49,834 nt of DNA from a virus. Positions 14,703 to 32,038 of this stretch are shown here, one piece after another (within the stretch, counting starts at the first letter, position 1; the number at the start of each line of letters is the position of its first letter). The notes below the pieces were generated by a model, which worked only from the letters and a program-made list of their open reading frames with translations, was not told the origin of the DNA and did not search any database. Position numbers and translations under genes: made by a program. The stretch covers positions 1-49,834 of IMG/VR virus record IMGVR_UViG_3300017917_002384; one strand, written 5' to 3'.

Positions 14703-15137
14703 ATGGAACAACTACATCAACTTGCTAAAATTGCATTTGCTAGTGAATTCAGCTTTTATCTAAAAGCACATCAATTTCACTGGAACGTCGAAGGCATGTT
14801 CTTTAAGCAATTTCACGATTTATTCGGTGATATTTACGAAGAAGTATTTGACAGCATAGACGTATTTGCCGAGCAAATACGTAGTCTAGGTTCGTACATG
14901 CCAGGCAGCTACACACGCTTTAACATGTTATCTGAAATCGAAGATGAAACTCAAATGCTTGAAGGAAAGCAAATGGTAGCTGAATTACTTAAAGATAATG
15001 AAAAAATGATAGTTATCTTAAAAAAGCTATTTGAAGCCAGTGAAGCAGCAAGAGAGCCAGGATTCAGCGATTTTGTTGCATCGAGAATTGATGCACACGC
15101 CAAACACGGGTGGATGCTAAGATCCATTCTCAAGTAA
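14703..15137 (+). CDS. dps: Dps-like mini-ferritin
   Basis: 144 aa, a four-helix ferritin-like protein. HQFHWNVEG (23-31) matches the Dps HWN-x-x-G signature. Spacing places the intersubunit ferroxidase ligands at H26, H38, D53 and E57, corresponding to H51, H63, D78 and E82 of E. coli Dps; the position of D67 is Gly42 with Asp43 beside it. Dps dodecamers oxidise Fe(II) with H2O2 and protect DNA. The Lys-rich DNA-binding N-tail of E. coli Dps is missing, so iron/peroxide detoxification is more likely than DNA binding. It sits among probable virion genes. Confidence 0.8.
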   Translation: MEQLHQLAKIAFASEFSFYLKAHQFHWNVEGMFFKQFHDLFGDIYEEVFDSIDVFAEQIRSLGSYMPGSYTRFNMLSEIEDETQMLEGKQMVAELLKDNEKMIVILKKLFEASEAAREPGFSDFVASRIDAHAKHGWMLRSILK

Positions 15138-18134: not shown

Positions 18135-18421
18135 TGAACACGTTGCTAAGTATCTTCAACTGGGCACGCCGAGATTTTCAAGAATGGCCTACTAGGTTTG
18201 TTCTAGAAATCTCAGCATGGCTGATGAGTTTGGGATGCTCTTTAGTTCTAGCAGCAAGTGTTACTGATCCACTGTTCTATTACCTATATCCGATATTCAT
18301 TTTACAATGCGCAATATTCGGTTGGGCGGCGTGGACTCGTAGAAGTACGGGGATGGTTGCAAATTATCTGTTGCTAGTCACAATTGATTGCATCGGTTAC
18401 ATTAGACTACTAAATAGCTAA
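18134..18421 (+). CDS. Small multi-pass membrane protein
   Basis: 95 aa from the ATG at 18134, which overlaps the upstream stop (TGATG). Three hydrophobic segments (about 24-44, 47-66 and 73-92) with a short basic loop (WTRRST) between the second and third. No transporter signature is recognised. Confidence 0.6.
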   Translation: MNTLLSIFNWARRDFQEWPTRFVLEISAWLMSLGCSLVLAASVTDPLFYYLYPIFILQCAIFGWAAWTRRSTGMVANYLLLVTIDCIGYIRLLNS

Positions 18422-18432
18422 GAGAAGGGTTC

Positions 18433-18450
18433 AATCAGCCATAAATGATT
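18433..18450 (+). promoter_or_regulatory. DNA polymerase leader hairpin 1 (loop GCCATAAA)
   Basis: AATCA - GCCATAAA - TGATT: a 5-bp stem with an 8-nt loop, starting 12 nt after the upstream stop. The loop is identical to that of the hairpin 25 nt downstream while the stem sequence differs, the pattern expected of a repeated RNA-protein recognition site. Confidence 0.65.
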
Positions 18451-18459
18451 ATTAGACGG

Positions 18460-18483
18460 TTGCCGGCCATAAACGGTAAGGAG
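18460..18483 (+). promoter_or_regulatory. DNA polymerase leader hairpin 2 overlapping the Shine-Dalgarno
   Basis: TTGCCG - GCCATAAA - CGGTAA (18460-18479): a 6-bp stem with one G-U pair and an 8-nt loop. The AAGGAG ribosome site (18478-18483) begins inside the 3' arm, 5 nt before the ATG. T4 gene 43 has a similar operator, a short stem with an 8-nt loop next to the Shine-Dalgarno, bound by gp43 to repress its own translation. The loop sequence here differs from the T4 one. Confidence 0.7.
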
Positions 18484-18488
18484 AATAA

Positions 18489-21158
18489 ATGAGTTATGTA
18501 GATGCCATTTGGGATCGAGACAAAGATGCGGTTCTTGTTGTCGAAAGAGATCCTAAAAAAGGTAGAATTTATCAAGAGTATCCAGCTAGATACACATTTT
18601 ACTACCCCGATCCAAAGGGAAAGTACAAGTCGATTTACAACGAATCGTTAACTAAAGTTGTTACTAGATCATATAAAGACTTCCAAAAAGAATTAAGAAT
18701 TCACTCTAGTCACAAGCTATACGAATCTGACATCAATCCAGTATTCAAAACTTTAGAAGAAAATTATCTCGGTGCAGAAGCGCCAAAGCTCAACGTAGCG
18801 TTTTGGGACATTGAGGTGGACTTCGATCCAGAACGTGGCTATGCATCTCCCGACGATGCATTTATGCCAATTACTGCGATTGCTGTTCACCTACAATGGT
18901 TAGACACGCTAGTCTGCTTGGCAGTTCCCCCAAAGACTTTGACAATGGAGCAGGCACTCGAGCAAGTAAAAGATTTTCCGAACACGCACTTGTTTGAAAC
19001 AGAAGCAGAAATGCTTGAGATGTTCTTACAACTGATTGAGGATGCCGATGTACTAAGCGGGTGGAACAGTGAGGGCTTTGATATGCCATATACTGTTAAT
19101 CGAATAACGAAGGCACTGAGCAAAGAAGATACCCGCAGACTATGCTTGTGGGGGCAAATGCCAAAAAAACGAGAGTACGAGAAGTATGGAAAAAAGGCTA
19201 CTACTTATGACCTGGTTGGTCGTGTTCATTTGGACAGTCTCGAGCTGTACCGCAAATACACATACGAAGAGCGTCACTCATACAGACTGGACGCAATCGG
19301 AGAAATGGAAGTAGGCGAAAGCAAGACAGTTTACGAGGGCACACTTGACCAGCTGTATAACAATGACTTTAAGAAGTTTATTGAATATAACAGACAAGAT
19401 ACTGCACTGTTGGATAAACTAGACAAGAAGCTAAAGTTCCTAGATCTTGCTAATACGCTGGCTCACGAATGTACTGTGTTGTTACAGACTACAATGGGCG
19501 CAGTAGCTGTTACTGAGCAAGCAATTGTAAACGAAGCACATCATCGTGGTCTAATTGTACCTAGCCGACCAAAAAGAGACGACTCTGAAAGCAATCAAGC
19601 TGCTGGTGCATATGTTGCGTACCCTAAAAAAGGACTACACGATTGGATTGGATCAATCGATATTAACTCACTGTATCCAAGTACAATTCGTGCGTTAAAC
19701 ATGGGTCCGGAAACCATTGTAGGACAGCTACGCCAAGATAAGACTGACCAATACATTCAAGAACAAATGATTATGCACAAAAAGTCATTTGCAGCAGCTT
19801 GGGAAGGCATGTTCGGGTCTTTGGAATACGAAGCAGTGATGCGCAAAGACAAAGCGTTTGAGATCACCGTAGATTGGGAAAACGGAGAAAGTACTGTGTT
19901 AAGTGCGGCCGAAGTTTACAACTTGATTTATGAAAGCAATCAACCATGGATGCTAAGTGCTAATGGTACTATATTCACACACGAAATTGAAGGAATCATT
20001 CCAGGACTGCTAAAGCGTTGGTATGCTGAACGTAAAGACATGCAGAAAAAACTCAAGGCAGCTATTGATGCAGGGAATAAGATTGAAGAAGAATATTGGG
20101 ACAAGCGTCAGTTGGTTAAGAAGATTAACTTGAACAGCTTGTACGGCGCTATTCTTAACCCAGGTTGTAGATTCTTCGATAAGCGTATTGGACAATCAAC
20201 TACTCTCACTGGGCGACAAATTGCCAAGCATATGGCAGGAAAAGTCAATGAGATGATTACTGGTGAATTTAACCATGTCGGCAAAGCTGTAATTTACGGG
20301 GATACTGACTCCTGTTATTTTTCTGCATATACTACGTTAAAGAACGACATCAACAAGAATCTCATTCCATGGAATAGAGATATTGTTGTCCAGCTGTATG
20401 ATCAAATAGCAGAAGGTGTTAATGCTACATTCCCCGATTTTATGTTGGATGCTTTTCACTGTCCGAAGAGTCGTGGTGAAGTTATCAAAGGTGGTCGAGA
20501 AATCGTTGCAGTCAAAGGCTTGTTTATTACTAAGAAGAGATATGCAGTGCTTTACTACGATAAGGACGGCAAAAGATATGACACCGACGGAAAGCCAGGA
20601 AAGATTAAAGCAATGGGCTTAGACCTTAAGCGAAGCGATACTCCTGAATTCATGCAGAAGTTCCTCGAAGAGATCCTAACCAAAGTACTTAATGGTGCTG
20701 AAGAACAAGAAGTTCTTGATATGATTAGTGAGTTTAGAACTGCCTTCAAAGCTAGACCTGGTTGGGAAAAAGGTAGTCCAAAACGTGCTAACAATATTAC
20801 CGAATATCAAGCTAAGGAACAAAAGCAAGGTAAGGCAAATATGCCAGGTCACGTTAGAGCTGCAATCAACTGGAATACATTGAAACGTATGAATGGCGAC
20901 AAATACTCGATGCAAATCGTTGACGGTATGAAAGTCATCGTATGCAAACTCAAAGATAACCCACTAGGGTATACATCAGTAGCTTATCCAGTTGACGAAA
21001 TGCGACTACCAAAATGGTTCCAGGATTTACCGTTCGATCATAATGAAATGGAAAGTACTATTATCGACAACAAGTTAGATAACTTAATCGGTGTACTCGA
21101 GTGGGACATAACAAGTACCGAAACTAAAAATACGTTCAATAGTTTATTTGATTTTTGA
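18489..21158 (+). CDS. 43: Family B DNA polymerase (T4 gp43-like)
   Basis: 889 aa (T4 gp43 is 898). The 3'-5' exonuclease motifs are FWDIEVDF (D107, E109), WNSEGFDMPY and YNRQDTALLDKL. The polymerase motifs are A, DINSLYPS (D391), B, KKINLNSLYG (about 544), and C, YGDTDSCYF (D605). The C-terminus ends SLFDF, matching the clamp-binding tail of T4 gp43. It replicates the phage genome with gp45, gp44/62 and helicase. The clamp gene follows directly. Translation is probably autoregulated through the two leader hairpins. Confidence 0.97.
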   Translation: MSYVDAIWDRDKDAVLVVERDPKKGRIYQEYPARYTFYYPDPKGKYKSIYNESLTKVVTRSYKDFQKELRIHSSHKLYESDINPVFKTLEENYLGAEAPKLNVAFWDIEVDFDPERGYASPDDAFMPITAIAVHLQWLDTLVCLAVPPKTLTMEQALEQVKDFPNTHLFETEAEMLEMFLQLIEDADVLSGWNSEGFDMPYTVNRITKALSKEDTRRLCLWGQMPKKREYEKYGKKATTYDLVGRVHLDSLELYRKYTYEERHSYRLDAIGEMEVGESKTVYEGTLDQLYNNDFKKFIEYNRQDTALLDKLDKKLKFLDLANTLAHECTVLLQTTMGAVAVTEQAIVNEAHHRGLIVPSRPKRDDSESNQAAGAYVAYPKKGLHDWIGSIDINSLYPSTIRALNMGPETIVGQLRQDKTDQYIQEQMIMHKKSFAAAWEGMFGSLEYEAVMRKDKAFEITVDWENGESTVLSAAEVYNLIYESNQPWMLSANGTIFTHEIEGIIPGLLKRWYAERKDMQKKLKAAIDAGNKIEEEYWDKRQLVKKINLNSLYGAILNPGCRFFDKRIGQSTTLTGRQIAKHMAGKVNEMITGEFNHVGKAVIYGDTDSCYFSAYTTLKNDINKNLIPWNRDIVVQLYDQIAEGVNATFPDFMLDAFHCPKSRGEVIKGGREIVAVKGLFITKKRYAVLYYDKDGKRYDTDGKPGKIKAMGLDLKRSDTPEFMQKFLEEILTKVLNGAEEQEVLDMISEFRTAFKARPGWEKGSPKRANNITEYQAKEQKQGKANMPGHVRAAINWNTLKRMNGDKYSMQIVDGMKVIVCKLKDNPLGYTSVAYPVDEMRLPKWFQDLPFDHNEMESTIIDNKLDNLIGVLEWDITSTETKNTFNSLFDF

Positions 21159-21169
21159 TAATATTTCTG

Positions 21170-21198
21170 TTGACTATTTAATAAGGCCTAAATACAAT
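21170..21198 (+). promoter_or_regulatory. Sigma70 promoter for the sliding clamp gene
   Basis: TTGACT (21170-21175), 17 bp, TACAAT (21193-21198). It lies in the 60-bp gap between polymerase and clamp, with the start expected near 21205 and an AAAGGA ribosome site downstream. This gives the clamp its own transcript in addition to polymerase readthrough. Confidence 0.7.
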
Positions 21199-21218: not shown

Positions 21219-21950
21219 ATGAAAGACATTCTTACAGATATCGTAGCACATACACATAGCCTAGGCATTTTGCCTCTAGTCAAAGTAACCGGTGAAAACG
21301 GAACTACAATGATCGAGTCAATGGCAGAAGATCGAAGTGTTGTATTAAGTGCTAAAACAAAAACGCAAGTATCAGAGTTCGATGGTGTTTTTGGCATGCC
21401 AAACTTGGATAAACTGAGTTTCCATTTGCGAAACCCAGAATACAAGGAAAACGCAAAGATCGACGTTGTCAAAGCTCAAAGAAACGGTGTCGACATGCCA
21501 GTGGGACTACATTTTGAAAATGCAGCAAAAGACTTCGTTAATGATTATCGCTTTATGAGTACAGAAATCATTAACGAAAAACTACGCACTGTTAAATTCA
21601 GAGGTGCGGTTTGGGATATCGAATTTGAACCTACTATTGCTAGTATTGCCAAACTAAAACTACAGGCAGGTGCACATACTGAAGAAAATGTTTTCCAAGT
21701 TAAAGTGGACAACGGCAATTTAATTTTCTTCTTCGGTGATGCAAGCACACACGCAGGTAGCTTTACTTTCCAAGCTGGTGTTACTGGAAAGTTAAAACAA
21801 GTATGGGCATGGCCAGTCACTCATGTATTAAGTATCCTTAACTTAGACGGTGACAAGACTATGCGAATTGCAGACGCAGGTGTTATGCAAATTACCGTAG
21901 ACTCTGGCTTAGCCGAATACAACTACATTCTGCCAGCACAAAGCAAGTAA
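21219..21950 (+). CDS. 45: Sliding clamp (T4 gp45-like)
   Basis: 243 aa (T4 gp45 is 228). It has the two-domain clamp organisation with a VFGMPNLDKL strand-helix near residue 50 and a C-terminal repeat ending AEYNYILPAQSK. The identification rests on size, position directly after gp43 and pattern similarity to phage clamps. The trimeric clamp gives gp43 processivity and in T4 is also the mobile activator of late promoters. Its stop overlaps the next ATG (TAATG). Confidence 0.88.
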   Translation: MKDILTDIVAHTHSLGILPLVKVTGENGTTMIESMAEDRSVVLSAKTKTQVSEFDGVFGMPNLDKLSFHLRNPEYKENAKIDVVKAQRNGVDMPVGLHFENAAKDFVNDYRFMSTEIINEKLRTVKFRGAVWDIEFEPTIASIAKLKLQAGAHTEENVFQVKVDNGNLIFFFGDASTHAGSFTFQAGVTGKLKQVWAWPVTHVLSILNLDGDKTMRIADAGVMQITVDSGLAEYNYILPAQSK

Positions 21951-31996: not shown

Positions 31997-32009
31997 CCAA
32001 TCTGCTAAA

Positions 32010-32038
32010 TATATACGCACTTTTCGGAGACGTATATA
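32010..32038 (+). promoter_or_regulatory. Leader hairpin holding the Shine-Dalgarno in its loop
   Basis: TATATACG (32010-32017) pairs with CGTATATA (32031-32038) around a 13-nt loop that carries CGGAGA; the ATG of the next gene follows immediately. A stem between ribosome site and start would change the effective spacing. The stem is AT-rich, so temperature or protein could modulate it. Confidence 0.4.

Follow-up and report, generated by a model that had tools for sequence, protein, structure and literature searches.

The leader of the DNA polymerase gene in the window, a virus record of 49,834 bases analyzed at its full length, contains two tandem H-type pseudoknots, the second of which abuts the Shine-Dalgarno sequence. 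Sequence comparison demonstrates how the leader is folded, including the pseudoknot pairing; it also shows that the element sits at the ribosome-binding site and is restricted to the polymerase gene or to a coupled gene preceding it. We favor, with moderate confidence, the interpretation that the pair forms a translational operator for which the polymerase would be the most likely binder. The element very probably switches polymerase output, and the polymerase gene is probably the gene under its control.

Each Unit Is an H-Type Pseudoknot

The polymerase leader, as read from the sequence, is 67 nt long and holds both hairpins (Table 1). The initial annotation described two hairpins with identical GCCATAAA loops at window 18433–18479, and the sequence is as described there; with its outer pair, hairpin 2 comprises (T)TGCCG at 18460–18465 and CGGTA(A) at 18474–18479. 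These are not plain hairpins. A GGY triplet located 0–4 nt upstream of each stem complements the RCC that opens the loop, which makes each unit an H-type pseudoknot. This GGY:RCC half had been overlooked, and the coordinates given for the structure were too short, as they left out the GGT of unit 1.

Alignment of relatives yields the unit formula GGY, 0–4 nt, stem, RCC, NNAAN, stem. The stem measures 4–7 bp (3 bp in some units of a sister clade), and no base separates its 5′ strand from RCC. The five-base NNAAN strand spans the short helix and has a near-invariant AA. A fixed GCCATAAA loop was not borne out, because the relatives read RC[C/U]-NN-AA-N and the first three loop bases are paired. 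Unit 1 keeps AYAAN in the loop and unit 2 tolerates NNAAN.

Table 1. Coordinates of the Leader Elements and the Polymerase Gene
Feature	Position	Strand	Description
TAAATA promoter-like element	18411–18416	+	Similar to the -10 box of T4 late promoters; 17 nt before unit 1
Pseudoknot unit 1	18428–18450	+	GGT at 18428–18430, linker TC, GGT:GCC pairing
Unit 1 stem AATCA/TGATT	18433–18437 / 18446–18450	+	Loop GCCATAAA (GCC-ATAAA) at 18438–18445
Pseudoknot unit 2	18458–18479	+	GGT at 18458–18460; 3′ end against the Shine-Dalgarno
Unit 2 stem TGCCG/CGGTA	18461–18465 / 18474–18478	+	Loop GCCATAAA (GCC-ATAAA) at 18466–18473
Shine-Dalgarno GGAG	18480–18483	+	Immediately 3′ of unit 2 (sequence)
DNA polymerase, family B, gp43-like, 889 aa	18489–21158	+	phrog_262, E 2.5e-204; PF00136 and PF03104; ATG start codon at 18489

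A promoter-like box precedes the units. Of 123 distinct leaders, 90 have TAAATA or a close variant at positions -17 to -12 relative to GGY, followed by GAG at -6 to -4. Transcription may start near 18422, just before unit 1. TAAATA occurs 24 times on the + strand of the window and 7 times on the other, and 7 copies touch short intergenic gaps just before genes (18410–18416, 21188–21194, 32005–32011, and others), which suggests that TAAATA is a phage promoter box. A few genes upstream of the polymerase, the window encodes a ferritin/Dps-like protein (14703–15137; PF00210, E 8.9e-20).

Covariation in Both Helices

A covariation check of both stems in related leaders, which had been proposed at the outset, uncovered extensive matched changes. 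When 166 distinct units were tabulated without requiring pairing, GG[U/C] occurred with [G/A]CC 152 times and AGU with GCU 10 times; the other four combinations were revealed by inspection to be spurious chance hairpins at other places. Neither GGC with ACC nor GGY with GCU was ever seen among the 166, and no genuine unit had a crossed triplet:partner combination. On the polymerase tree, the switch from GGU:GCC to AGU:GCU took place approximately eight separate times, a count made on units already filtered for pairing (the 166-unit table was unfiltered). Parsimony for unit 1 gave seven G>A changes matched by seven C>U changes, with 6/6 independent pairs in agreement, and one further such switch was found for unit 2 in a separate clade.

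Pair counts in ungapped alignments gave the same result. For unit 1 (40 sequences), 96.9% of cells were paired, with 78 double-sided changes; for unit 2 (36 relatives with the longer-linker form), the values were 98.3% and 44. The pseudoknot helix was 100% paired in both. None of 500 shuffles scored as high in cells paired, double-change cells, or covariation score for either unit, and the pairing signal was lost when the partner was slid out of register. The last pseudoknot pair (Y:R) is U-G in 31/40 sequences for unit 1 and 30/36 for unit 2, which argues for a structure in RNA rather than DNA.

Folding energy was uninformative. The energy of the leader is unremarkable (z = 0.04 relative to shuffles), and the minimum-energy structure, which breaks unit 1, was rejected as evidence because it is no better than those of shuffles. 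The 3-bp pseudoknot helix is weak and is not predicted by energy folding. As folding energy is not distinctive, the case rests on comparison. We also considered GGY:RCC as an alternative hairpin that replaces the stem. Of 232 distinct units, 111 could extend this helix by a fourth pair, compared with a mean of 99.5 and a maximum of 110 in shuffles, so that the extension is marginal. A 3-bp hairpin alone would be weak, and the pseudoknot is therefore preferred; bistability between the GGY:RCC hairpin and the stem is possible.

Tandem leaders whose unit 1 starts with GGC instead of GGU tend to end the unit 1 loop in G. The third GGY base and the final loop base might form a base triple; the correlation holds for 7/9 independent pairs in unit 1 (Fisher p = 0.005), is absent in unit 2 (p = 1), and was left as a lead.

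The Element Marks the Polymerase Gene

Both units are found in all 80 close relatives (IMG/VR records whose polymerases are 80%–90% identical in amino acid sequence), and none of the 80 has lost both loop and pairing. The hairpin pair is not a chance occurrence: two 5-bp hairpins with identical 8-nt loops 18–40 nt apart were present in 0/60 shuffled windows. At locus L076, unit 2 is mismatched at the stem top and was missed by the parser. More widely, hundreds of uncultured relatives keep the element with letters swapped in matched pairs.

The initial annotation correctly assigned a duplicated RNA structure to the leader of a gp43-like family B polymerase, and the structure is tied to that gene. 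The unit occurs nowhere else in the window. A sequence-only scan with one stem form returned 120 sites, 117 of them 57–68 nt upstream of a polymerase gene. Two further stem forms returned 229 sites, with 220 located within 120 nt upstream of a polymerase start; the remaining nine comprise two contig ends with the same leader, four sites with an interposed gene, and three chance matches. The GC-rich matches at L458, L569, and L600 were discarded as chance; a site at L099 near a pattern match was also rejected, as it lies inside an open reading frame. Four long records (331, 238, 349, and 230 kb) have recognizable units only at the polymerase; elsewhere in them, matches did not exceed those in shuffles and none preceded a Shine-Dalgarno and start codon. 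The commonest stem form had no matches in 257 Gb of bacterial genomes, and inspection by eye identified no unit in the leaders of ten cultured jumbo-phage relatives or in those of T4, S-BM3, P-HM2, RHph_N34, and nt-1.

Among 325 loci with long polymerase reads, 170 have tandem units, 77 a single unit, 4 only the far unit, and 74 no leader unit. In a lineage that accounts for many of these 74, the polymerase gene directly follows or overlaps the upstream gene. Any autogenous control is therefore not universal.

Another gene separates the element from the polymerase at 12 loci (L128, L176, L210, L213, L217, L240, L363, L365, L498, L499, L595, and L638). In 11/12, the stop codon of this gene overlaps the start of the polymerase, so the element still leads a translationally coupled unit, as a translational operator must. 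The interposed products include an HNH protein (PF13392) and proteins judged by eye to be sulfotransferase-like or esterase-like; the remaining ones had no Pfam match. The gap between element and polymerase is an insertion hot spot at which coupling is nearly always preserved. At another locus (L153), the polymerase gene itself is interrupted after residue 114 by ∼920 bases (about 1007–1929), which may represent an intron or a homing-gene insertion.

The proposal of two sites stands for the window and all 80 close relatives and fails in a sister clade (polymerases ∼65%–70% identical to the window polymerase), which has one pseudoknot and a different hairpin. This clade keeps the Shine-Dalgarno-proximal unit, which overlaps the Shine-Dalgarno itself, with the 3′ stem strand running into GGAG (CCGGCCAYAAACGGAG). 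Unit 1 is replaced by a different covarying hairpin and then ATGWA. The Shine-Dalgarno-proximal unit therefore seems to form the core, with unit 1 as an add-on or partner. The replacement hairpin is present in L212, L264, L297, and about 50 other sister-clade leaders, ∼30–60 nt upstream of the polymerase (for example, GTC-GCTC-ACGTTAC-GAGC-ATGAA); its stems vary in matched pairs, and the CATGWA after the hairpin is kept.

Comparison with Known Operators

Autogenous control by gp43 and gp32 is a founding example of translational repression. In T4, each of these proteins recognizes its own leader, gp43 through a hairpin and gp32 through a pseudoknot (PMC3014915, PMC535899). The gene 43 operators of T4 and RB69 resemble the window element in gene class and in having a 5-bp stem and an 8-nt loop upstream of the Shine-Dalgarno (AATAACTC in the T4 leader). 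Their loop has UAAN (AAUAACUC in T4), similar to the AUAAN seen here, and UAAA is reported for the RB49 loop (PMC3014915). However, the T4 operator is one hairpin, farther from the Shine-Dalgarno, and a 2010 review found no evidence of a pseudoknot in gene 43 operators (PMC3014915). In the window element the unit is duplicated, GGY pairs with RCC, and the loop is in another register. The element shares the location of gene 43 operators, close to the ribosome-binding site in a family B gp43-like polymerase leader, and lacks their structure (a single hairpin, a UAAC/UAAA 8-nt loop, and no pseudoknot): its 8-nt loop has UAAA, but is pseudoknotted and present twice. The element probably works like a gene 43 operator, yet it lies outside the structural definition of that family.

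The gene 32 leaders of T4, T2, and RB69 offer a structural parallel: there too an H-type pseudoknot occupies the leader of a replication gene, and it serves in the autogenous repression of translation (PMC535899, PMC3014915). In the window, the same fold is identified by compensatory changes in the two helices. Gene 32 differs in gene and sequence, and its single copy lies upstream of UUAAA repeats that recruit the single-stranded DNA-binding protein (SSB) cooperatively; the window has two copies, one of them on the Shine-Dalgarno, and they precede a polymerase rather than an SSB gene. The 2010 review considered the gene 32 pseudoknot perhaps the only case of viral autoregulation by such a fold (PMC3014915).

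The STAXI pseudoknot (RF01728) also recurs, in two or three copies, near genes whose products handle DNA (PMC2864571), but it is enterobacterial with frequent UUCG tetraloops. Rfam, STAXI included, gave no leader match up to E = 5 and none at gathering level in the window, with covariance models that do not score pseudoknots. The RegA-type operator is an unstructured A+U-rich site at the start codon in phages with regA; the window element is structured, and RegA (PF01818) was absent from nine records, which may be incomplete (the T4 control was positive). A literature search, which covered subscription papers only in part, found no description of the element.

Probable Control of Polymerase Synthesis

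The second unit adjoins the Shine-Dalgarno, as expected of a translational operator. We infer repression, polymerase binding, and two-site cooperation, and control is probably autogenous, in the manner of T4 gene 43 but built from pseudoknots. Free polymerase, when in excess over DNA ends, would bind unit 2 and block the ribosome (30S) at the Shine-Dalgarno; unit 1 would provide a second contact site and make the response steeper or tighter. Among candidate binders the polymerase is the simplest, because the element is confined to that gene, the polymerases and SSBs of T4 and RB69 regulate themselves through a hairpin and a pseudoknot, respectively (PMC3014915, PMC535899), and RegA was not found. 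T4-type polymerases are only ∼26% identical to the window polymerase, so RNA binding is not transferable by homology. More tentatively, the tandem pseudoknots could be a phage-specific RNA family to which two polymerases, or a polymerase and a nucleotide ligand, bind cooperatively, a proposal that we regard as possible but doubtful.

An operator for some other phage protein (a clamp, SSB, or RNA-binding protein of another kind) controlling only the polymerase would have the same anatomy, and the T4 pseudoknot operator does belong to the SSB gene 32 (PMC535899). The gene 3′ of the polymerase (21219–21950; phrog_12062, function unknown) is possibly clamp-like, and in Phosso a gene annotated as a sliding clamp lies directly downstream of the polymerase. 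This reading is unlikely, as a general regulator should mark other genes, whereas the unit occurs only at the polymerase; the known general repressor, RegA, went undetected. A small tandem riboswitch, in which a metabolite such as a nucleotide exposes or hides the Shine-Dalgarno, would fit the compact pseudoknot, its A-containing third strand, and the Shine-Dalgarno contact, and tandem aptamers exist (tandem glnA RNAs, PMC2864571). We think it improbable: riboswitches usually serve several genes and this element serves one, very few single-stranded positions (AA) are conserved, no Rfam family matches, and one stem form is absent from the bacterial genomes searched. There is similarly little likelihood of a ligand-free structure that shields the 5′ end of the mRNA or sets how efficiently it is translated. 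The conserved TAAATA suggests that transcripts start a few bases before unit 1, which would put the knots at the 5′ end, but the conserved RCC and AA and the exact GGY:RCC match exceed the needs of a stability element, and the unit is tightly confined to one gene. A DNA element such as a protein site or an origin would suit near-palindromic stems such as GATCA/TGATC, but is highly improbable given that the U-G last pair of most units works in RNA and not in DNA and that the units always lie on the coding strand at the ribosome-binding site.

The many natural variants pinpoint bases to test. With units of about 22 nt, the element offers a compact RNA part that might be used to control replication. 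A large, metagenome-only phage group appears to have pseudoknots, usually paired, at its polymerase gene. If cooperative binding is true, polymerase synthesis in these phages would switch sharply with the amount of free polymerase relative to DNA, or with the supply of nucleotides.
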